A DNA stretch of 64,000 bases. It comes from Edaphochlamys debaryana (taxonomy: Eukaryota > Chlorophyta > Chlorophyceae > Chlamydomonadales). A model generated the notes under the pieces. That model was not told the origin of the DNA. It did no database searches and saw nothing but the letters and a program-made list of their open reading frames with translations. The stretch covers positions 496,001 through 560,000 of the forward strand of contig JAEHOE010000086.1 in assembly GCA_016858145.1 (NCBI GenBank). The letters are read 5' to 3'. Position 1 is the first letter of the stretch; every line of letters begins with the position of its first letter. Made by a program: the position numbers and the translations under genes. Positions 5,962 through 41,300 of this stretch are shown in pieces.

Positions 5962-8900
5962 ATGTCAGGCGCGTTCGCGGCGCGCACGGCCGCGGAGGAG
6001 GGCGAGAAGGGGCGCGTGGACAAGACGCGCGTCAAGCGCTATTGGCCCGGCAAGGCGCCCGAATGGGCGGAGCAGCAGGAGGAGGCCGAGGCGCCTCGGG
6101 AGCGGGTGCGAACGGAGGTGGCGGCACCGGTGATCGTGCGGAGGTGAGCGGTGTGTGGCGAGGGGGCAGGAGAGGGGTGGGTGGGTGTACAAGTGGGGGC
6201 TCGGGGTTTAAGTGGGGGCTCGGGAGGGCTTGGCTTTGGGGCTGCGTATCGTACCCCATGCCAGCAACGAGAACAGCCAGCCCGACAGGGCAACAGCAAG
6301 GAAGATCCCTGGCTGAAGCGGAGGCTGGTCACGGAGCGGAGGCACGACATGTGATGCGATGTGATGTCTGTCCAGGCTGCGTGTAGGCTCGGCCGGGGCT
6401 CTCTGGCTACAGAAGTGTGGGCGCCGCTGGGGCCCGGGAGTGAGGGTCTGTGCGCACCGGCATGCGCTCGTGCCGCAACGAGCAGAGGAACTCTGTGCTG
6501 TTGAGGCCGCCCCCTGGTTCGGCTGGGGCCCTGGCTACAGCAGTGGGGGCGCCGCTGGGGCCCGGGGACAAGGGGTGTGGGCTCCTGCGTGCACTCTTGC
6601 AGAGGAGGGTCTGTGCGCACCTGCATGCTGGCCTGCAGACGGGGGCTGCGGCGGTGGCCACTGGCCACTGAGCGCCGGGGGCCGGTTCGGGGATGCGGGC
6701 CGCAGGGCCCTGCCGCCCCGCCGCCCCTCGTGTCGCCCTCCCGCCGCCCCCTCCCGCCCACCTCGGTCCGTCGCTGAGGGCGCCAGTTCTTTGTTCGCTC
6801 CCTCATCTCAAATCCGCGAAACCCGCACTCTATACCAGCCCCTGCCCAGCCCCCGCTTCACACCAACCCCTGTCCCTCCCCAAACCTCCCCCCCACAGGG
6901 CGGATGACCCCCGTCTGGCCCGTCTGCAGCAGTCCCGGCTGGCGGACAGGGACGAGGCGCTGCAGGTAGGGGGGGTGGGGGAGGAGGGAGAGGGGGGGAG
7001 GAGGAGTGTCAGGAGTGTCAGGTGAAGGGCCAGGAGCATCGCTGATGCCAGATCCGGGCGGATGAGAGACCTGGCTTGCCCTGATTCCCATGTGAACGAA
7101 GCTCCCCTCGTCCCTACTGACTCCCCCCCTGCCTGCCTCCCTGCATCCGCGCGCCCCCCCTGCCCCCCGCCCACAGGAGCGCCGCCAGATCCGGGCGGCT
7201 GAGATCGTACGGATCAAGCGGGAGCGGAGCGAGGAGCCGTCCTCTGAGGGGGGCGGCACTGGTCCGGTGCTGGGGCGGGAGGGGGAGGAGGAGGACGAGG
7301 AGGAGGGTGGCGGCGGGGAGGAGGAGGAGGGGCGGCAGCTGCGGCGGAGGCGGCGGGAGCGGAGCGAGGAGCCGGAGGCGCCCTTGGATGTGAGTGGGGA
7401 GGGAGGAGGGGGGAGGAGGGGGGTCGTCCTTGACATTTTGGAGTCCGGAGAGTGGTGGGGATGGGCGCGAGGAGAGAACCGGTGGCCCGCTTTAGTCATG
7501 GGATGTGGGCCCTGGTCCCAGCCTGAGGGCGGCTGCTCTCTGCTCATCCTTTGCGGACCCGCCCCGTGCTGCGCCCTGCCCCATGCCGTGCCATGATGTG
7601 CTCTGTGCCGTGCCGTGCTGTGCTGTGCGTGCGGTGCAGGGCGACGTGCCTGACGGCGAGATGCAGCGGCGCGTGGCGGCCCGTGAGGCCAAGGAGGAGG
7701 TGGAGGACGAGGAGGAGGCGGCGCGGCGGCGGCAGGCGGTGCGCGAGAGGTGAGGGGGGGAAGGGGGCCGGGTGGGGGGGGCGGGGGCAGGTGGGGGGGG
7801 CTGAGGGGAGGTGTGGGGAGGGCTGAGGGGGGCTTGGGGTGAGGCGCGGGAGAGGAGTATCCACCGTTCCTTGCCCTTTGCCTCCCCTACCCCCCTGCCC
7901 CCCAAAGGCTCCTGCAGCAGCAGCGGGAGGAGGAGGAGCGGCGGAAGGCGGCGGCGGCAGAGGAGGAGGAGGAAGAGGAGGAGGAGGTGGGGCGGGGGCG
8001 GGAAGGGGCGGGGAGGGCGCGTTGTGGACACGCTTGCCACATAGGCCCGGGCCTCTCTAGGGACGCGTGGCGAAGCCCCATATTCGTGCCCCATCTCTTG
8101 ATCCTTATCTTGTGGAGGAATCTTCGGCACCCATGCCCACACGACAAGCCCCATTTACTGGCCCGTGCCCCCTCCCGCCACCCCATCCCCCCCTAGGAGG
8201 AGTCTTCGGAGTATGAGACAGACGACGAGGACGACGGACCCGGTGGGTGTTAGGGGTGGGGGGTTGGGAGGGTGGGGCCGCGCGACCTGGTTTACGGTTC
8301 AGACCTGACGACTCCGTGCCCCTCCTCTTCCCTCTTCCTTACGCACCCTAACCCCCCCTCCCCTTCCACCCCGTCAACCCCTGCTCCCCCTCCTTCCCCC
8401 CAAAGGCGGGCGCCTGCTCAAGCCCGTTTTCGTGCCCAAGCATGCACGGGACGTGAGTGGGGGCGGGGGCGGGGGTAGAGGGAGGGCAGACAGGGCGGGA
8501 GGGCGGGAAGAGGGAGGAAGGGAGGGCCGCGCTTAGATTTGTGGCGGGGGTGCCGGAGGTTGGAGGGATAGCTGGCATGAGAGAGACAGAGAGATGGTAC
8601 AGGTGTTGACCCAACCCGCACGCTCCGCTAGGGTCAGAGTCGGGACACATGGCCGGGCCGGGCCGGGCTGGGCCCGGGAGGTGGTGTGGCGTGTCACTCC
8701 GCCGAAGCCTCCTTTGCTTATGCTGTCCCTTCCCACAAGCCCCGCCACAAACCGCCCCCCCCCCCCATCCCCATCCGCCTCCCCCGCCCCCACACACACA
8801 GACCGTGGCTGAGAAGGCGGCCATGGAGGCGGAGGAGGAGGACGCCTACCGCCGTGACAAGCAGCGCCTGGAGAGCCGCAAGGTGGGGGGGAGGGAGGGG

Positions 8901-11900
8901 GGAAGAGGGGGAAGAGGAGGGGGGGAGACGTGACACGGTGTATGGGCGTGTGGTGCATGGCCAGGACTGGCAACGGCTGGGATCGGGCGTTGGGCATGGA
9001 CCAACCGCCAACGGCTAACCGTCAACCGCAGGAGGAGACCAAGGCCATCGTCACCGAGACCCTGGCGCTGGAGGCTGCCGCCGCCGCCGCCGCCGCCGCC
9101 GGCCCCGCAGGCCTGGACGACATTGACACGGACGACGAGGCGGAGCCGGTGCAGGTGGGGGGGGGGGGGAGAAGGAGGGTTTGACACGGTGTATGGGCTC
9201 AATGGCGGGGTATTTGTGACGTCCACCCCAGGTGGGGGGGGGGGCACACAAGCCGTCTGACCACACGTCGTGCGCCGCATTCACTGCTGTCCCCGCCCCC
9301 ACGCTTGGTAACCCGAACCCCCCCCCCGACCCCGACCCCCCAGGCCTACGATACCTGGAAGGCGCGCGAGCTCCGACGCATCAAGCGGTGGGGGGGGGGG
9401 GAGCCTGGCAGGGGGGGCGGGATGGGGGGCTGCACTCCACCGCACACTCCGCGCGGGGCCTTGGGGGGGATGTCGGGCCTAGGGCAGGGGAGCTGTGAAG
9501 CGGCCGCGAGGACCGGGGGGAGGGTTTAGGGCCGTACCCCGATGCCGTACACGCTGCCGTACATCCTGCCGTACATGCTGCCGTACCCCAGGGACCGCGA
9601 GGAGCGCGAGGCCATGGAGCGCGAGGCCGCTGAGCGGGAGCGGCTCAAGAACATGACGGAGGAGGAGCGGGCGGCGTGGGAGCGGGCCAACCCCAAGGTG
9701 CGTGTGCGTGCGTGTTTGTGTGTGTTAGGGAACGAGGAAACTTTAAGCAAGCAGAATGCGTGGGTGTGGGTGTCTTTTTGTGTGCTTTGGGGTGGAGTGG
9801 GCGGGGAGGGCTTGGGAGGGCGTGCCTTGGGGAGGGAGCGGGAGGGTGTCATGGAGGTGGGGGAGAAGACGGGGCGGGGTCTTGGGTCTTGGGGGGCAGG
9901 AGCGGGCTGGACGCGGGGGTGGTCGCACCATGGCACCCTCCTGGTGGGGGCAAGGCACGAGGAGCGACTCAAGTTGGGCACTGCTACACAGTCGCAGGCG
10001 CGGTGCAGAGCCGGCCGGTGCTCAGTTGCGTAGCCCAGCCCATCCCGCCCGTCCCGAACCGGCGTGTTTTGGGTTTTTTTGGGGGGGAGGGCTTGGAGGA
10101 GGGGGTTTGTCTACTGAGTCTCAACCGACAGAGCCGTGCCCTCCCCACGCCCCCACTCCAAACCTTCCACACTGACAATCTCTCTACCGTATCCTCCCTC
10201 CCTGCCCTCCCGCCCACCCCCCGCAGGTGGCCAAGCCCGAGGGCCCCAAGTCCAAGTGGAACTTCCTCCAGAAGTACTGGCACAAGGGAGCCTACTTCCA
10301 GGTGGGGGGGGTGGAGGGGGAGAGGGGGAGGTGCTGGCAGGCGGGAGCGCTTCCCCCGTCTAGACAAGCCCCAGCAAGAGGCGAAGCGGAGGGCCCCAAA
10401 GTTTCCCCATCCAAACGCTCCCTATCCAATCTCCCCGTCGAACCTCTGCCGCGACGCCGACTCCTCCCCCGCTGTCCCCACGGCTCACAAAATCCCCCCC
10501 TTCCCCCCTCCTTCCCCACCCCACCCCACCCCAGGAGTCCGCCGACGACACCCGCGGTACGGCAGGTACGGACGCCATCTTTACCCGTGACTTTTCGGCG
10601 CCCACCGGCTTCGACAAGTTCGACAAGTCCGTACTGCCCAAGGTCATGCAGGTGAGAGCCGGACCGGACCGGACGGGTATAGGACGGGTCCGGACCGGAG
10701 GGGAAGGGGACCGGACCGGACTGGACTGGACCGGACCGGACTGAGGCCGGAGTATGACCGGACTCGGTTGGACTGGGACCGGACTGGGGCGGAGATGGCG
10801 GGGCTGGGGCGGAGGGGGCCGGGCCGCATTGTTGGGGGAGGTAGGAGGACGCAGGTGGGGGCATGGCGGGGCCGTGCGGGCAGTCCTCCACCCCCCCGCG
10901 ACCCCTCCCTCCCCTCGAGCCCCTCCTCTGCACACACACGCGTAAGCCCTCCCTCCTCTCCGCCCCCTCCGTCTCCTCACCTCTTTCCCCCCGCCCCCCC
11001 CCAAACCCCAACTCCCCCCCCCCTCAGGTCAAGAACTTCGGCCGCCAGGGCCGCACCAAGTGGACCCACCTGCTGGCGGAGGACACCACCCAGGCAAGAG
11101 GGGGGGAGGCAAGAGGGGGGGAGGAGGCAAGAGGGGGGGAGGCAAGGGCAGGGGGGGCGGACCAAGTGGACCCACCTGCTCGCGGAGGACACCACCCAGG
11201 CAAGAGGGGGGGGAGGAGGCAAGAGGGGGGGAGGCAAGGGCAGGGGGGGCGGACCAAGTGAACCCACCTGCTGGCGGAGGACACCACCCAGGCAAGAGGG
11301 GGGGAGGAGGCAAGAGGGGGGGAGGCAAGGGCAGGGGGGGCGGACCAAGTGAACCCACCTGCTGGCGGAGGACACCACCCAGGCAAGAGGGGGAGGAGGA
11401 GGCAAGAGGGGGGGAGGCAAGGGCAGGGGGGGCGGACCAAGTGGACCCACCTGCTGGCGGAGGACACCACCCAGGCAAGAGGGGGGGAGGCAAGAGGGGG
11501 GGAGGCAAGGGCAGGGGGGGCGGACCAAGTGAACCCACCTGCTGGCGGAGGACACCACCCAGGCAAGAGGGGGAGGAGGAGGCAAGAGGGGGGGAGGCAA
11601 GGGCAGGGGGGGCGGACCAAGTGGACCCACCTGCTGGCGGAGGACACCACCCAGGCAAGAGGGGGGGAGGCAAGAGGGGGGGAGGAGGCAAGAGGGGGGG
11701 AGGCAAGGGCAGGGGGGGCGGACCAAGTGGACCCACCTGCTCGCGGAGGACACCACCCAGGCAAGAGGGGGGGGAGGAGGCAAGAGGGGGGAGGCAAGGG
11801 CAGGGGGGGGGCGGACCAAGTGAACCCACCTGCTGGCGGAGGACACCACCCAGGCAAGAGGGGGGGAGGCAAGAGGGGGGGAGGAGGCAAGAGGGGGGGA

Positions 11901-14900
11901 GGCAAGGGCAGGGGGGGGCGGACCAAGTGGACCCACCTGCTCGCGGAGGACACCACCCAGGCAAGAGGGGGGGGAGGAGGCAAGAGGGGGGAGGTAAGGG
12001 CAGGGGGGGGCGGACCAAGTGAACCCACCTGCTGGCGGAGGACACCACCCAGGCAAGAGGGGGGGAGGAGGCAAGAGGGGGGGAGGCAAGGGCAGGGGGG
12101 GCGGACCAAGTGAACCCACCTGCTGGCGGAGGACACCACCCAGGCAAGAGGGGGAGGAGGAGGCAAGAGGGGGGGAGGCAAGGGCAGCGGGGGCGGACCA
12201 AGTGGACCCACCTGCTGGCGGAGGACACCACCCAGGCAAGAGGGGGGGAGGAGGCAAGAGGGGGGGAGGCAAGGGCAGGGGGGGCGGACCAAGTGGACCC
12301 ACCTGCTGGCAGAGGACACCACCCAGGCAAGAGGGGGAGGAGGAGGCAAGAGGGGGGGAGGCAAGGGCAGGGGGGGGCGGACCAAGTGGACCCACCTGCT
12401 GGCGGAGGACACCACCCAGGCAAGAGGGGGAGGAGGAGGCAAGAGGGGGGGAGGCAAGGGCAGGGGGGGCGGACCAAGTGGACCCACCTGCTGGCGGAGG
12501 ACACCACCCAGGCAAGAGGGGGGGAGGCAAGAGGGGGGGAGGAGGCAAGAGGGGGGGAGGCAAGGGCAGGGGGGGCGGACCAAGTGGACCCACCTGCTCG
12601 CGGAGGACACCACCCAGGCAAGAGGGGGGGGAGGAGGCAAGAGGGGGGAGGCAAGGGCAGGGGGGGGCGGACCAAGTGAACCCACCTGCTGGCGGAGGAC
12701 ACCACCCAGGCAAGAGGGGGGGAGGAGGCAAGAGGGGGGGAGGCAAGGGCAGGGGGGGCGGACCAAGTGGACCCACCTGCTCGCGGAGGACACCACCCAG
12801 GCAAGAGGGGGGGGGAGGAGGCAAGAGGGGGGGAGGCAAGGGCAGGGGGGCGGACCAAGTGAACCCACCTGCTGGCGGAGGACACCACCCAGGCAAGAGG
12901 GGGGGAGGAGGCAAGAGGGGGGGAGGCAAGGGCAGGGGGGGCGGACCAAGTGAACCCACCTGCTGGCGGAGGACACCACCCAGGCAAGAGGGGGAGGAGG
13001 CAAGAGGGGGGGGAGGAGGCAAGAGGGGGGGGGGGCAAGGGCAGGGGGGGCGGACCAAGTGGACCCACCTGCTCGCGGAGGACACCACCCAGGCAAGAGG
13101 GGGGGGAGGAGGCAAGAGGGGGGAGGCAAGGGCAGGGGGGGGCGGACCAAGTGAACCCACCTGCTGGCGGAGGACACCACCCAGGCAAGAGGGGGGGAGG
13201 CAAGAGGGGGGGAGGAGGCAAGAGGGGGGGAGGCAAGGGCAGGGGGGGGCGGACCAAGTGGACCCCACCTGCTCGCGGAGGACACCACCCAGGCAAGAGG
13301 GGGGGGAGGAGGCAAGAGGGGGGAGGTAAGGGCAGGGGGGGCGGACCAAGTGAACCCACCTGCTGGCGGAGGACACCACCCAGGCAAGAGGGGGGGAGGA
13401 GGCAAGAGGGGGGGAGGCAAGGGCAGGGGGGGCGGACCAAGTGGACCCACCTGCTGGCGGAGGACACCACCCAGGCAAGAGGGGGAGGAGGAGGCAAGAG
13501 GGGGGGAGGCAAGGGCAGGGGGGGCGGACCAAGTGGACCCACCTGCTGGCGGAGGACACCACCCAGGCAAGAGGGGGAGGAGGAGGCAAGAGGGGGGGAG
13601 GCAAGGGCAGGGGGGGCGGACCAAGTGGACCCACCTGCTGGCGGAGGACACCACCCAGGCAAGAGGGGGGGAGGCAAGAGGGGGGGAGGAGGCAAGAGGG
13701 GGGGCGGCAAGGGCAGGGGGGGCGGACCAAGTGGACCCACCTGCTCGCGGAGGACACCACCCAGGCAAGAGGGGGGGGGAGGAGGCAAGAGGGGGGAGGC
13801 AAGGGCAGGGGGGGGCGGACCAAGTGAACCCACCTGCTGGCGGAGGACACCACCCAGGCAAGAGGGGGGGAGGAGGCAAGAGGGGGGGGAGGCAAGGGCA
13901 GGGGGGGCGGACCAAGTGGACCCACCTGCTCGCGGAGGACACCACCCAGGCAAGAGGGGGGGGAGGAGGCAAGAGGGGGGGAGGCAAGGGCAGGGGGGGC
14001 GGACCAAGTGAACCCACCTGCTGGCGGAGGACACCACCCAGGCAAGAGGGGGGGAGGAGGCAAGAGGGGGGGAGGCAAGGGCAGGGGGGGCGGACCAAGT
14101 GAACCCACCTGCTGGCGGAGGACACCACCCAGGCAAGAGGGGGAGGAGGCAAGAGGGGGGGAGGAGGCAAGAGGGGGGGGGGGCAAGGGCAGGGGGGGCG
14201 GACCAAGTGGACCCACCTGCTCGCGGAGGACACCACCCAGGCAAGAGGGGGGGGAGGAGGCAAGAGGGGGGAGGCAAGGGCAGGGGGGGGCGGACCAAGT
14301 GAACCCACCTGCTGGCGGAGGACACCACCCAGGCAAGAGGGGGGGAGGCAAGAGGGGGGGAGGAGGCAAGAGGGGGGGAGGCAAGGGCAGGGGGGGCGGA
14401 CCAAGTGGACCCACCTGCTCGCGGAGGACACCACCCAGGCAAGAGGGGGGGGGAGGAGGCAAGAGGGGGGGAGGTAAGGGCAGGGGGGGCGGACCAAGTG
14501 AACCCACCTGCTGGCGGAGGACACCACCCAGGCAAGAGGGGGGGAGGAGGCAAGAGGGGGGGAGGCAAGGGCAGGGGGGGCGGACCAAGTGAACCCACCT
14601 GCTGGCGGAGGACACCACCCAGGCAAGAGGGGGAGGAGGAGGCAAGAGGGGGGGAGGCAAGGGCAGCGGGGGCGGACCAAGTGGACCCACCTGCTGGCGG
14701 AGGACACCACCCAGGCAAGAGGGGGGGGAGGCAAGAGGGGGGGAGGCAAGGGCAGGGGGGGCGGACCAAGTGGACCCACCTGCTGGCGGAGGACACCACC
14801 CAGGCAAGAGGGGGAGGAGGAGGCAAGAGGGGGGGAGGCAAGGGCAGGGGGGGCGGACCAAGTGGACCCACCTGCTGGCGGAGGACACCACCCAGGCAAG

Positions 14901-16882
14901 AGGGGGAGGAGGAGGCAAGAGGGGGGGAGGCAAGGGCAGGGGGGGCGGACCAAGTGGACCCACCTGCTGGCGGAGGACACCACCCAGGCAAGAGGGGGGG
15001 GGGCAAGAGGGGGGGAGGAGGCAAGAGGGGGGGAGGCAAGGGCAGGGGGGGCGGACCAAGTGGACCCACCTGCTCGCGGAGGACACCACCCAGGCAAGAG
15101 GGGGGGGAGGAGGCAAGAGGGGGGAGGCAAGGGCAGGGGGGGGCGGACCAAGTGAACCCACCTGCTGGCGGAGGACACCACCCAGGCAAGAGGGGGGGAG
15201 GCAAGAGGGGGGGAGGAGGCAAGAGGGGGGGAGGCAAGGGCAGGGGGGGCGGACCAAGTGGACCCACCTGCTCGCGGAGGACACCACCCAGGCAAGAGGG
15301 GGGGGAGGAGGCAAGAGGGGGGAGGTAAGGGCAGGGGGGGCGGACCAAGTGAACCCACCTGCTGGCGGAGGACACCACCCAGGCAAGAGGGGGGGAGGAG
15401 GCAAGAGGGGGGGAGGCAAGGGCAGGGGGGGCGGACCAAGTGAACCCACCTGCTGGCGGAGGACACCACCCAGGCAAGAGGGGGAGGAGGAGGCAAGAGG
15501 GGGGGAGGCAAGGGCAGCGGGGGCGGACCAAGTGGACCCACCTGCTGGCGGAGGACACCACCCAGGCAAGAGGGGGGGAGGCAAGAGGGGGGGAGGCAAG
15601 GGCAGGGGGGGCGGACCAAGTGAACCCACCTGCTGGCGGAGGACACCACCCAGGCAAGAGGGGGAGGAGGAGGCAAGAGGGGGGGAGGCAAGGGCAGGGG
15701 GGGCGGACCAAGTGAACCCACCTGCTGGCGGAGGACACCACCCAGGCAAGAGGGGGGGAGGAAAGAGGGGGGGAGGAGGCAAGAGGGGGGGAGGCAAGGG
15801 CAGGGGGGGCGGACCAAGTGGACCCACCTGCTCGCGGAGGACACCACCCAGGCAAGAGGGGGGGGAGGAGGCAAGAGGGGGGAGGCAAGGGCAGGGGGGG
15901 GCGGACCAAGTGAACCCACCTGCTGGCGGAGGACACCACCCAGGCAAGAGGGGGAGGAGGAGGCAAGAGGGGGGGAGAGGAGGCAAGAGGGGGGAGAAGG
16001 GCAGGGGGGGCGGACCAAGTGAACCCACCTGCTGGCGGAGGACACCACCCAGGCAAGAGGGGGGGAGGCAAGGGGGGGGGGGGGGGGGAGGAGGCAAGGG
16101 GGGGGAGGAGGCAAGAGGGGTGGCAGGCAAGGGGGAGGGGGGCGGACCAGGTGGACCCACCTGCTGGCGATCGCACTCCTCCCCGATCGCCCCCTCTGTC
16201 CGCCTACACTGTCAGAGACGAGCTGCATGCTGTGCCATCACACCCCTGCTCAGACGCACAATCGCACACCCTCAACCCCGCTCAACACCCCTCATCCCCC
16301 TGTACCCTAGCTAGGAGCGCTATGCTTCCCTGGCGCAGGCGACGCCATCCCGCTCAGCAACAAACACCCCCTATTTCCCCTCACCCCTCCACCATCACCC
16401 CGTTTAGGTGGAGGACGAGCTCTACGCCGCTGCCAAGGACGGCATCGTGCGGAAGCGGAACGAGGCACTGGCGGGGGCACAGGTGTGTATGGGGGGGGAA
16501 GGGGGGGAAGGGGGGGAAGGGGGAGGGGGTACTGAAGGCTTGTTGCCTGGCGGTTGCTAAGTCGGGAGAAAGTCTTCCCGCCGAACACCACTAGGGACGG
16601 GGGAGGGGGAGGTAGGGGGGCGGGGGACCAGGCACGGGGGCGGGGGGGCACGGGTGGGGGGCTGCAGCCGCGCCCTAGAGGTAGATTGGAGGGCGGCGGG
16701 GCCGTGGGGGCCTCCAGCCTCCACACTGCACCGCACCGCGTGTCCCCTCCTCTCCGCTCCCCTCCACGCGGTCCCCGTGTCCGGGTCCTCTTGCGTTGGC
16801 CTGCCCCCTCAACACCCCCCCATCGCACCCCCGCCCCTCAACCCCACAGGTCTTCAACAAGCCAAAGAAGTTCAAGCGCTGA
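5962..16882 (+). CDS. MFAP1: MFAP1, spliceosomal B-complex protein, complete
   Basis: MFAP1 is a nuclear pre-mRNA splicing factor that binds PRP38 in the B complex. Exons: 5962-6143, 6899-6965, 7177-7389, 7640-7749, 7908-7986, 8197-8242, 8406-8452, 8802-8882, 9032-9154, 9344-9387, 9592-9697, 10227-10301, 10535-10651, 11028-11093, 16408-16482, 16850-16882. All phases close and give 487 residues (animal MFAP1 is about 440). Landmarks in order: DDPRLARLQ near the N-terminus; acidic Glu-rich stretches; YETDDEDDGPGGRLLKPVF; WKARELRRIKRDREEREAME; KNMTEEERAAWERANPK; WNFLQKYWHKGAYFQ; FTRDFSAPTGFDKFDKSVLP; KVMQVKNFGRQGRTKWTHLL; C-terminal VFNKPKKFKR. Intron 14 starts with GC (CAG|GCAAGAG) and has swollen to 5.3 kb with exon-derived repeats. 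The usual Trp-containing segment after the EDTT motif is not seen, so the protein goes from EDTTQ to VEDELYAAAKDG. Confidence 0.95.
8560..8655. repeat. Dispersed repeat copy 1 (in MFAP1 intron)
   Basis: A segment centred on acaggtgttgacccaacccg at about 8594 recurs near 44270. The similarity extends through a following caggnnagagtcggg-like stretch and an upstream gacagacag-like stretch. It sits between MFAP1 exons 8406-8452 and 8802-8882. It is probably a fragment of an interspersed element. Confidence 0.6.
9541..9591. repeat. Short ccgtac-based tandem repeat at an intron end
   Basis: The motif (a/c)tgccgtac recurs four to five times in about 50 bp, right up to the acceptor of the MFAP1 exon at 9592. 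Similar ccgtac-rich strings recur elsewhere in the window, including coding DNA near 4000-4090 and in the kinase genes. Confidence 0.6.
10652..10800. repeat. Degenerate CCGGA/GGACT microsatellite in MFAP1 intron
   Basis: From the donor after 10651, ccggaccgga-type pentamers with ggactgg variants run for about 150 bp, followed by G-rich then C/T-rich DNA up to the acceptor at 11027. No coding potential. Confidence 0.75.
11044..16170 (+). repeat. Exon-derived minisatellite, about 54 copies, each with a GC 5' splice site
   Basis: The first unit is the 3' part of the real MFAP1 exon 11028-11093 (GRTKWTHLLAEDTTQ) plus the start of its intron. By hand count about 53 further units follow, each with the exon piece from gcggaccaag to the CAG, then GCAAGAGG and two to four inner aggcaagaggggggga repeats, then aggcaagggcagg. 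Units run from about 90 to 130 bp. In about 24 units the Trp codon TGG reads TGA. The last unit breaks off after cacctgctggcg near 16170, beside unrelated DNA. The block lies inside intron 14 and is extremely G-rich on the plus strand. Confidence 0.93.
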
Positions 16883-38369: not shown

Positions 38370-41300
38370 ATGGCCCTTCGCCACTACAGTTTGGCCGGGA
38401 ATCCCCTAATCCCCTTGGATGCATTGTACCCGACCACTCAGATTGAGAGCGTGGAGGACTACACGCCTCTACGCCAAGTCGGCGAGGGAGCGTATGCCAT
38501 TGTCTATGAGGCTCTGCACAGGCCCACGGGGAGCACTTTCGTCGTGAAGCGCTTCAAGTTTGCCCACAGGGACGCACAGGTAAGCTGCATAGCCTGCGTA
38601 AATAGGGTATACGTGCGTGCATGCACTCACGCGGAGGGCTCCAGGACTCACCCGGGTTCGGTCCGAGTAGCGCACCAGGACTCTCCGCTCCCCGCCGGCT
38701 GCCGTCACGGCACCACGGTGGTGCGTGGCCTCGTCAGGGCACAGACAGGTTAGGTATCTGGGCACTAAGCGCGAACGACAAGCCGGATGCCCATCTGCGC
38801 CGGCATCACGCCCCCTCAGGTGCAGCGCCTGGCAGTGCGCGAGCTGCGCGTGTTGGCCAGCCTCCCTCCCCACCCCAACGTCGTGCAGCTGCTCAGCTCC
38901 TTCCGGAGGTGCGTGGGCAGGGCGCCACGTCGGTCGGGGAGCCCTGAAGCGCATAGGTCCTTCAACTAGTTCATTCCGAGGCACTCATAGAAGGGCGGGG
39001 CTTCTTACCCTCTGACGACACGCGCTCTCGCTATCTGAGGCTTGGCCCTGCCCTCTGATGTCTGACTAGTCTGCTGCCTTCCTCACGAACCTCCCAAACA
39101 CATACAGCGGCTCCGGGCGGCCGTACATGGCTTTTGAGCGCATGGGAAGAGACTTGGAGCAGGTACGTGCGTAAGAATCGCCCATGATAATCCCGGACAT
39201 TGGGGTGCCACAGTAGTGGTTTTAGTTCTGTGATGGGCTGCGTCTCATCACCGCACCCACCTACTTACCTTCCGTTTGCTAACTCATCACCCGCTCACAG
39301 GAGATGGCCCGCTATCCCGGCCACCGCCTGCCCCCGGCCCTGCTGCGGGCGGTGGCTTGGCAGCTGCTGGGAGCACTGGAGCACTGCCACAGCCACGGGG
39401 TGAGGGCGAGATCTTGCTGGCCTGAAGCCAGTCGGCGTGCATGTCAGCCCCTTAGCATCCCCGTAACATCTATCGGTTACACCACACCACCTGCCAAACC
39501 CTCCACCCGTTAGGTCATACATCGCGACGTCAAGCCCAGCAACGTCCTGATCGACACCCGCGAGGGGGACAGCGGCGAGCCGACGCCCGTGGTCAAGCTG
39601 TGCGACTGTGAGGAAGGGGGCAGGGTTGGGGGCTGCAGTGCTACTGGCTGTTCAGTCCGGGCAATGGGTGCCTCAGGGCAGGGCACACAAGGCTCCCAGT
39701 AGCCTCATAGTAGCGACTGTGAGAGCGGTTGGACGAGGAGCGCACTTGCCTTGTGATGGACTCAAACATGGGTGGCTAATGACCAAGGGGAGCAGGTGGT
39801 TAGCCATCGCTCTTGCTCTCCCCTCTCCACCCTGCCGCAGTCGGCCTAGCGCGCTGGCACGCGTCAAAGCCGTCCTCGTTAGGCTCGTTTGCTCTCAGTC
39901 CTCAACACTCTTACCTGCCCTGCTAATCCTTTGCTTGCTTTGCGCTCCTTTCCCCACCCCACGACAGTCGGCCTAGCGCGCTGGCTCCCGGGGGCCGACC
40001 CCGAGTCCCGTGGACTGGCGGGCCGGCGGGAGCCCGCGGCGGTGGCGGAGGCGTCTGTGCGTCCGGCCTCTCATGGCGAGCCCCTGTCAAGCTACGTCGT
40101 CAGCCGCTGGTACCGAGCGCCCGAGGTACGCCGATAGATCCGTGATCCCAGCCCAGTTTCTTGGGGTCAAGTGCATCTCAGCCAGCCTTCTGCGTCCCCC
40201 TGGACGACATGCACCACTCGTGGCAAGCAAACCGGCATCCCTTTCCCACCAGTCGCTGCTGTAGTGTGCTCCCCCGCAAGCCGTTCAAGTTTCCTTCCCT
40301 CCCGCCCTGTCCTCATGTCGTACCGTGTCATCCTACCTCAGCTGCTGGTGGGCAATCGCCTGTACGGCACCCCCGTGGACGTGTGGGCCGCGGGCTGCAC
40401 CCTGGCGGAGCTGGCGACGGGACAGACCCTGTTCCCGGGTGCGTGGTTCGCCTGGGGCGGTTGCTGCCTGGAGCCGCCCAACACGGAGCCAGCGGGAGCC
40501 GCCGCTTGCCCGCTGCACGCATGCTCGCCGCCCGCATGCATTCGCCGAGCTCGAACCTCGCTCATCATGCGATTGTCCCTCCGTCTACGCCCAGGTTCGT
40601 CCGAGTCAGACCAGCTTTGGATCATGGTCCGGGCGCTGGGCCCCGTGCCCCGAGGCGCCCACAAGGCCAGCGGCGGGTCAGGGAGCAGTCGAGCCGGCTG
40701 CGCCCCGCCCAGCGTCTCAATACCCGCCGGCAGGGCTCTGGCCACGAGGCTGGGGGTGAGTTGCCTGGTATCGCGGCTGAGCTCTAACGGGAAAGCCTTC
40801 TGCCCAGTCCGCTATCACGTGGGGCTGATGGTTGGGCGGTTGAGTGGTATCCAGTTGAACCTACAACTGAACCGTGCCCCACCCTCCGCCCCGCAGCCGC
40901 TTGTGGATCCCGGCCTGCTCCAGGTCATCGGGCGGTGCCTCACCATGGACCCGGCGCTGCGCCCCACCGCCGCGCAGCTGCGCAGCCTGCCCTACTTCCA
41001 CGGACTGAGCGAACCCGCCGCCTGCACCCCACCGGCCCCTCGGCTCCCAGAGCCCCCAACCGGTCCCCCGAGCTCCGGGCTCCAGTCCCCACGCGCTCAC
41101 CTTCACACCGCTCCCGCGGCCTCCAAGCTGCCGTCCCACGCTTCATCAGTCGCTGCGGTGTCGCCTGCCGCGGCGGCGGACATGCTACCCGCTGCTCCGC
41201 TGCCTCTGCCTTCACGGTCTCTGCACCCCGCATCCTCTGCAGCTCGATGGCGTCGCGACTCCACCGTTCGGCGCGCTACAAACTCTACCGTCGGCACGCT

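Follow-up and report, generated by a model that had tools for sequence, protein, structure and literature searches.

Intron 14 of the MFAP1 gene in the green alga Edaphochlamys debaryana carries a tandem array whose unit is the end of the preceding coding exon, its GC 5' splice site (donor) and the start of the intron, repeated in 52 full copies and one truncated copy beside the real exon. We regard this array as probably a minisatellite spanning the exon-intron boundary, of the kind called a 'mirage' in amphioxus, whose copies are spliced out as intron and tolerated as decoys. The DNA examined (hereafter the window) is a 64,000 nt stretch, C86:496001-560000, from a genome of 141.9 Mb in 502 contigs, and positions without a contig number are those of the window. 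The joined 16-exon model of the gene is identical, letter for letter, to the database protein HYH03_013237 (487 amino acids), which matches Pfam PF06991 with an E-value of 6.5e-70, and its best match among solved structures is likewise named MFAP1 (5o9z chain K). The original prediction for this DNA had named the gene MFAP1, which these matches bear out, and had set the feature between 11028 and 16407, which are indeed the positions where exon 14 begins and intron 14 ends. The principal features are as follows.

5962..16882, plus strand: coding part of the MFAP1 gene, 16 exons, 487 amino acids (identity to HYH03_013237; Pfam).
11028..11093, plus strand: MFAP1 exon 14 (VKNFGRQGRTKWTHLLAEDTTQ), phase 0 (gene model).
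11055..11093, plus strand: exon 14 tail, 39 nt, the exonic part of the repeat unit (unit alignment).
11094..11095, plus strand: GC 5' splice site of intron 14 (gene model).
11094..16407, plus strand: intron 14, GC-AG, 5,314 bp (gene model).
11094..16169, plus strand: array of 52 full copies (exon tail, GC donor and intron start) and one truncated copy, the 54th if the real exon is included.
16406..16407, plus strand: acceptor AG that closes intron 14; exon 15 follows at 16408-16482.

The median intron of E. debaryana is 198 bp long (PMC8226300). The other 14 introns of MFAP1 measure 149-755 bp and all start with GT, leaving intron 14 with the sole non-GT donor among the 15. BRAKER is not known to accept GC-AG introns other than from hints. 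As the E. debaryana annotation was made using BRAKER with 100-bp paired RNA-seq (PMC8226300), and non-canonical splice sites are poorly found without hints (PMC5716242), the presence of the GC donor in the database model suggests RNA support for that donor.

Perfect ACACCACCCAG|GCAAGAG junctions number 53: besides the real one, whose donor is 11094, there are 52 copies, ending with the one whose donor lies at 16053. All 53 keep the GC donor (AG|GC, not GT); the truncated final copy breaks off at 16169, within its exonic part, and lacks a junction. Units measure 88-109 bp and consist of 39 nt of exon 14 tail (ACCAAG...CCCAG, a match that begins after one altered base), the GC donor and 48-69 bp from the beginning of the intron, with 15-18-bp donor sub-repeats inside, and 168 AGG[CT]AAG sites (164 AGGCAAG and four AGGTAAG) are found in 11028-16170. 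Exon 14's own acceptor is absent from the unit and the acceptor of intron 14 lies outside it. The 142-Mb genome yielded 61 exact CCCAGGCAAGAGG sites, 56 on the forward and 5 on the reverse strand; as 53 of them fall within the array, a chance origin is excluded. What the original prediction had described, namely an amplification of about 54-fold (real exon, 52 full copies, one truncated), a unit made of coding exon end, GC donor and intron start, a donor kept in every copy, inner aggcaagagg-type repeats and dozens of identical donors facing one acceptor, stood up to counting. Beyond that description lie the absence of exon 14's own acceptor from the unit, GT donors in four copies and a change of TGG to TGA, at one site, which places a stop in the exon 14 frame in 24 of the 52 copies.

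Among the 52 units, the intron part occurs in 23 types, which are set apart mostly by the length of their G runs and by how many AGGCAAG sub-repeats they hold, and the exon part in five, three of which cover 50 units. We rejected the invariance of the donor over 53 copies as evidence of selection, because the copies differ at few sites besides G-run length. The internal order of the array suggests growth by multi-unit exchange: mean pairwise identity between units is 0.916, neighbours share 0.903 versus 0.938 for units 12 apart, and exact repeats of 262-278 bp occur with a spacing of 851-857 bp, the best lag being reached in 52 of 2000 shuffles of unit order, which is only moderately significant. 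The last full unit (type W) is unique and the 3' copy is truncated. Assembly errors are known to arise in long, near-identical arrays, such that the array could have been invented or its copy number inflated; we consider this very unlikely, as the PacBio library was size-selected to 15-50 kb, longer than the array, with Illumina correction and Pilon polishing (PMC8226300), and 23 intron-part variants in irregular order do not resemble simple stutter. A coding array is ruled out by a stop at 11259, and reverse-strand open frames (the longest 1,724-1,736 codons) were put down to base composition rather than to a gene.

Besides the real splice sites, the intron holds the following signals.

11094..11143, plus strand: four GC donors, at 11094, 11109, 11127 and 11142, which keep the frame and give no stop on joining exon 15.
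11259..11261, plus strand: first in-frame stop (TGA from TGG) on read-through of donor 11094.
11994..11995, plus strand: canonical GT donor inside the array (GAG|GTAAGGG), with others at 13326, 14474 and 15325.

Donor and acceptor strengths were scored using matrices trained on 370 predicted introns; on these GT-dominated matrices, which are harsh on GC, the real MFAP1 donor scores 1.4 bits (5th percentile), and the canonical GT donors held by four array copies (GAGGTAAGGG) score 9.17 bits (66th percentile). The real acceptor of intron 14 scores 7.2 bits (34th percentile) and is exceeded by two AG sites between the array and exon 15, at 16254 (8.7 bits) and 16311 (7.6 bits). When scored as acceptors, the 53 exon-end sites reach 2.5-4.0 bits, at most the 13th percentile. 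A recursive splice site, with a strong acceptor directly before the donor, was rejected on these values. They also stand against stepwise removal of the intron, in which each CACCCAG|GCAAGAG copy would serve as acceptor and then as donor in the manner of such a site; a C/A-rich CACCACCCAG does stand directly before the donor at every junction copy, but with scores this low we find the proposal highly improbable.

Only four of the 168 AGG[CT]AAG sites are frame-keeping and stop-free as donors, all within the first 50 nt of the intron. This figure, and the four GT donors that outscore the real GC donor, would suit a regulatory role, in which low splicing capacity leads to use of array donors, hence to stops and degradation of the mRNA, as the other 164 sites break the protein. 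Stops of this sort are expected, however, from most out-of-frame intron repeats, and the same structure is shared by CSN5, TYW1 and other unrelated genes (below), and we therefore judge self-regulation of MFAP1 unlikely. The link to the gene's own role in splicing, drawn in the original prediction, is not supported for the same reason, as echoes of the same kind occur in CSN5, TYW1 and other predicted genes. Nor does any observation speak for the altered splicing efficiency that it also raised, the database protein being exactly what use of the first donor would give.

We use echo for a copy of an exon edge within the adjoining intron. In the gene for COP9 signalosome subunit 5 (CSN5) on contig C190 (pieces L039, L041 and L042; C190:104401-109900), five exon ends and one exon start are echoed. 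One exon end, GCWLSGIDVNTQ, occurs in five copies 92 bp apart, each with its GT donor in the form CAG|GTGGGGGG, and four further exon ends are echoed at YMVDFLDTNK, KVEIGAF, AKSYYPLDITFFKSSTD and FAVGQ. The single start echo comprises an acceptor and exon start (AVHRPEN), and its copied acceptor differs from the real one in one of 25 bases and lies 125 bp further upstream. TYW1 has two single end echoes with intact donors, 188 and 139 bp downstream. On the minus strand of C147:175801-178100 (piece L040), in a gene that we take to be BBS1-like, a run of 15-bp AGGCAAGAGGGGGGG-like units, 1.4 kb in all, separates an exon end from a second copy of it. A further observation comes from piece L014 (C2:372919-375945), where a presumed exon end GGGGGAGGTCAACGCGG with a GTGAGC donor at 1651 is found again at 1753 and 1946; its last copy has a GTAAGC donor, and a nearby acceptor and exon start are apparently doubled.

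To judge which copy splicing uses, database proteins were set against the echoes in MFAP1, CSN5 and TYW1. Seven end-echo introns retain intact echo donors: MFAP1 intron 14, four in CSN5 (after WLSGIDVNTQ, YMVDFLDTNK, SNRDFAVGQ, which contains the FAVGQ end, and SSTD) and two in TYW1. The database protein fits the first donor in all seven, and in six the echoes leave no trace in it. The MFAP1 protein corresponds to use of the first GC donor, 11094, with exon 14 present once; the CSN5 protein HYH03_018027 fits the first of five identical GT donors, and the TYW1 protein HYH03_000018 fits the first donor in both echo introns. For the one start echo checked, in CSN5, the protein fits the downstream (last) acceptor. 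As first donors and a last acceptor fit the database proteins, the pair in use appears to be the outermost one. Exon definition predicts use of the outermost pair, and nearest-pair intron definition predicts the opposite. The short introns of Volvox and Chlamydomonas have been argued to be spliced by intron definition (PMC4378016).

The MFAP1 protein also bears on exon repetition, raised in the original prediction, in which the copies would be spliced in as tandem exons. The copies do retain the donor and some of the reading frame, and 9 nt of a CSN5 echo are taken as a micro-exon in the database model, but the MFAP1 unit contains no copy of the exon's acceptor, its exon ends score no higher than the 13th percentile as acceptors, 24 of 52 copies have a stop in the exon frame and the exon appears only once in the protein. 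Repetition of exon 14 is thus extremely unlikely.

The frequency of edge echoes was sampled in 264 kb, comprising the window and 20 pieces of 10 kb (200001-210000 of contigs C1-C20). Genes were predicted using a purpose-written gene finder based on a hidden Markov model (HMM), in its starting model only; self-training drifted, to 817 predicted introns of median length 147 in place of 513 of median length 200, and was not used. The starting model was trained on MFAP1, and its recovery of 15 of the 16 MFAP1 exons is no independent test. Predicted genes of <200 coding nt, introns of <60 nt and introns beside exons of <40 nt were left out, which gave 384 introns, 14 of them from MFAP1; with MFAP1 excluded from echo counts 370 remained, and removal of repetitive exon edges reduced these to 360 ends and 361 starts. 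Exon edges recurred in the adjoining intron at 8 of 360 ends and 5 of 361 starts, compared with 0 of 2160 ends and 1 of 2166 starts in length-matched introns of other genes. Without the filter, at score 16, the counts were 10 of 370 ends and 9 of 370 starts (control 0 of 2220 each), and no reverse-complement echo was found in the own intron on either side at a score of at least 14 (0 of 370, unfiltered).

Echoes are concentrated at the edge itself. Counts taken 18 nt from the edge were 2/332 for ends and 1/334 for starts, falling to 0/283 and 1/297 at 36 nt, 0/250 and 0/257 at 54 nt, 0/197 and 0/211 at 72 nt, and 1/143 and 0/154 at 108 nt. Introns on the wrong side of the exon contained no echoes (0 of 228 ends, 0 of 230 starts), whereas right-side introns under an equal exon-length limit contained 4 of 277 and 5 of 286. 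This fall-off from the edge and the empty wrong side argue for duplication across the boundary rather than dispersed copying. A dispersed-repeat origin was likewise rejected using a 91-nt unit as a genome query, which gave at least 149 matches in all; among the matches listed outside C86, all begin at query position 35 or later, so that they take in G-rich intron sequence but no more than the final few of the 39 exonic nt. The motif AGGCAAGAGGGG is a common G-rich tandem motif genome-wide (104 forward and 116 reverse pairs, MFAP1 array included), and six places matching the G-rich part were read in portions (L014, L015, L016, L018, L039 and L040). Of 78 rows of tandem arrays in introns, 25 have their start no more than 40 nt from the donor and 14 their end equally close to the acceptor, but the rows overlap and were not used.

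Smaller features were also seen in the window, one of them an echo in an intron of MFAP1.

7047..7067, plus strand: in MFAP1 intron 2, a single echo covering part of the exon 3 start.

At the donor of MFAP1 intron 4, a G-rich 19-20-bp repeat (7748-7831) begins with the last two bases of exon 4. The start of a predicted exon at 39968-40125 is echoed in the preceding intron at 39841-39858, with an acceptor-like CAG. A 77-bp minisatellite of 8.2 copies (98% matches) at 1386-2017 lies in an apparent intron of a minus-strand gene, with no exon edge noticed in its unit.

The history of the MFAP1 array may be pictured as follows. Slippage or the repair of a break within the G-rich beginning of intron 14 would have produced a first duplication, which unequal exchange of several units at a time, or gene conversion, could then have spread. 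The coding strand of the sampled introns is rich in G at the start (43% of the first 60 nt), and C makes up 48% of the last 60 nt (274 introns); in the array, all 53 G-quadruplex (G4) motifs lie on the sense strand, against 0 on the antisense strand; G-rich DNA with G4 motifs may favour R-loops and slippage and so duplications at exon ends. G-richness is not the whole cause, because exon starts are echoed too. Exon 14 would be recognised as a unit, through its own acceptor and the nearest donor, such that its outermost donor, 11094, pairs with the acceptor ending at 16407 and the copies leave as intron, a choice that fits exon-unit recognition since the MFAP1 copies have no acceptor of their own. 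The array would have no positive function, persisting as normal splicing hides it.

Several points weigh against this account of a tolerated, spliced-out minisatellite. The real GC donor is weak, and the stronger GT donors in the array, with the better-scoring AG sites upstream of the real acceptor, make leakage of splicing quite possible on matrix scores. The higher-order structure of the array is modest, as the shuffles show. The CSN5 database protein has an extra STD after FFKSSTD that cannot come from joining across a single intron; it requires a micro-exon of 9 nt taken from an echo and ending at the echo's own donor (C190:108797-108805, or the equivalent in the second echo), and the relative in C. 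schloesseri does not have it. A CSN5 echo may therefore enter an exon, unless the micro-exon is a modelling error. Donor use as read from gene models, and under the need for a conserved protein, is a statement about survivors, because echoes able to take over splicing would seldom persist; five identical donors are nonetheless tolerated in the conserved CSN5 gene. In the sample, the gene models are our own HMM predictions, and three of the 13 echoes, all in piece L022, may instead reflect gene repeats or repeats in coding sequence (two resemble whole-exon duplication, one, at 8915, a simple repeat); without these three the counts are 6 of 360 ends and 4 of 361 starts.

A broader proposal, which we put forward tentatively as possible rather than probable, is that this volvocalean alga pairs outermost splice sites by exon definition, that thousands of its introns grow from their edges as mirage minisatellites, that echoes sometimes become micro-exons, as in CSN5, and that MFAP1 intron 14 is the extreme case. 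Under exon definition, boundary duplications at either exon edge would be nearly invisible to splicing because the outermost pair is used. The CSN5 locus is possibly the best place for a splicing test.

Arrays of this type resemble the 'mirages' of amphioxus: in its Adh3 and globin genes, exon-intron boundaries at one edge or the other are duplicated in minisatellite fashion, many of the units hold splice signals, and splicing is regular (PMC3087553). In MFAP1 too, the unit spans the boundary in each of 52 copies, the array adjoins the authentic boundary (11094 to 16169, within intron 14) and splice signals are kept in all 53 junctions, as GC, not GT. The differences are the host, a green alga versus a cephalochordate (BflGb6, BflGb9, Adh3), the number of copies, 53 junctions versus six and three repeat units reported for two BflGb6 haplotypes (PMC3087553), the GC donor with its nested 15-18-bp donor sub-repeats, and the occurrence of echoes in an unselected intron sample of E. 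debaryana. The amphioxus authors suggested that mirage units could turn into new exons or introns (PMC3087553), and by analogy the CSN5 micro-exon would be a case of a unit becoming an exon. Introns born by duplication, in potato RdRp and in the 24-bp AGGT repeats of fission yeast, also involve duplications across splice signals, the fission yeast introns spanning four or two duplicates (PMC4974935), but the MFAP1 intron grows, shows no sign of birth and has its acceptor outside the unit. Rogers-type intron gain, in which a new intron takes both of its splice sites from the duplication, was rejected as the acceptor at 16406-16407 is not in the unit. Internal tandem repeats of human paralogues are similar in that minisatellite expansion alters gene structure (PMC2812944); they differ between recent paralogues and half are in coding sequence, whereas the MFAP1 copies are intronic in the database model. 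CeRep25B of C. elegans is likewise an intronic minisatellite near splice decisions, although its unit is not described as an exon edge plus donor in the part of that report available to us (PMC4039745). A literature search found no report of boundary arrays of this kind in green algae, but subscription papers lay mostly outside it and this is weak evidence of absence. New here are the host lineage, the copy number, the GC donor and the apparent genome-wide scale.

Series of identical donors are usually hand-built for splicing assays; here they occur naturally, as 53 GC donors in MFAP1 and as five GT donors and two near-identical acceptors in CSN5, and the choice of copy separates exon definition, which uses the outermost pair, from intron definition, which uses the nearest. 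MFAP1 intron 14 is thus a natural experiment in which 53 identical donors face one acceptor. If echoes are found genome-wide at the frequency of the sample, ~1-2% of exon edges, they would represent a visible route to longer introns, new splice sites and micro-exons.
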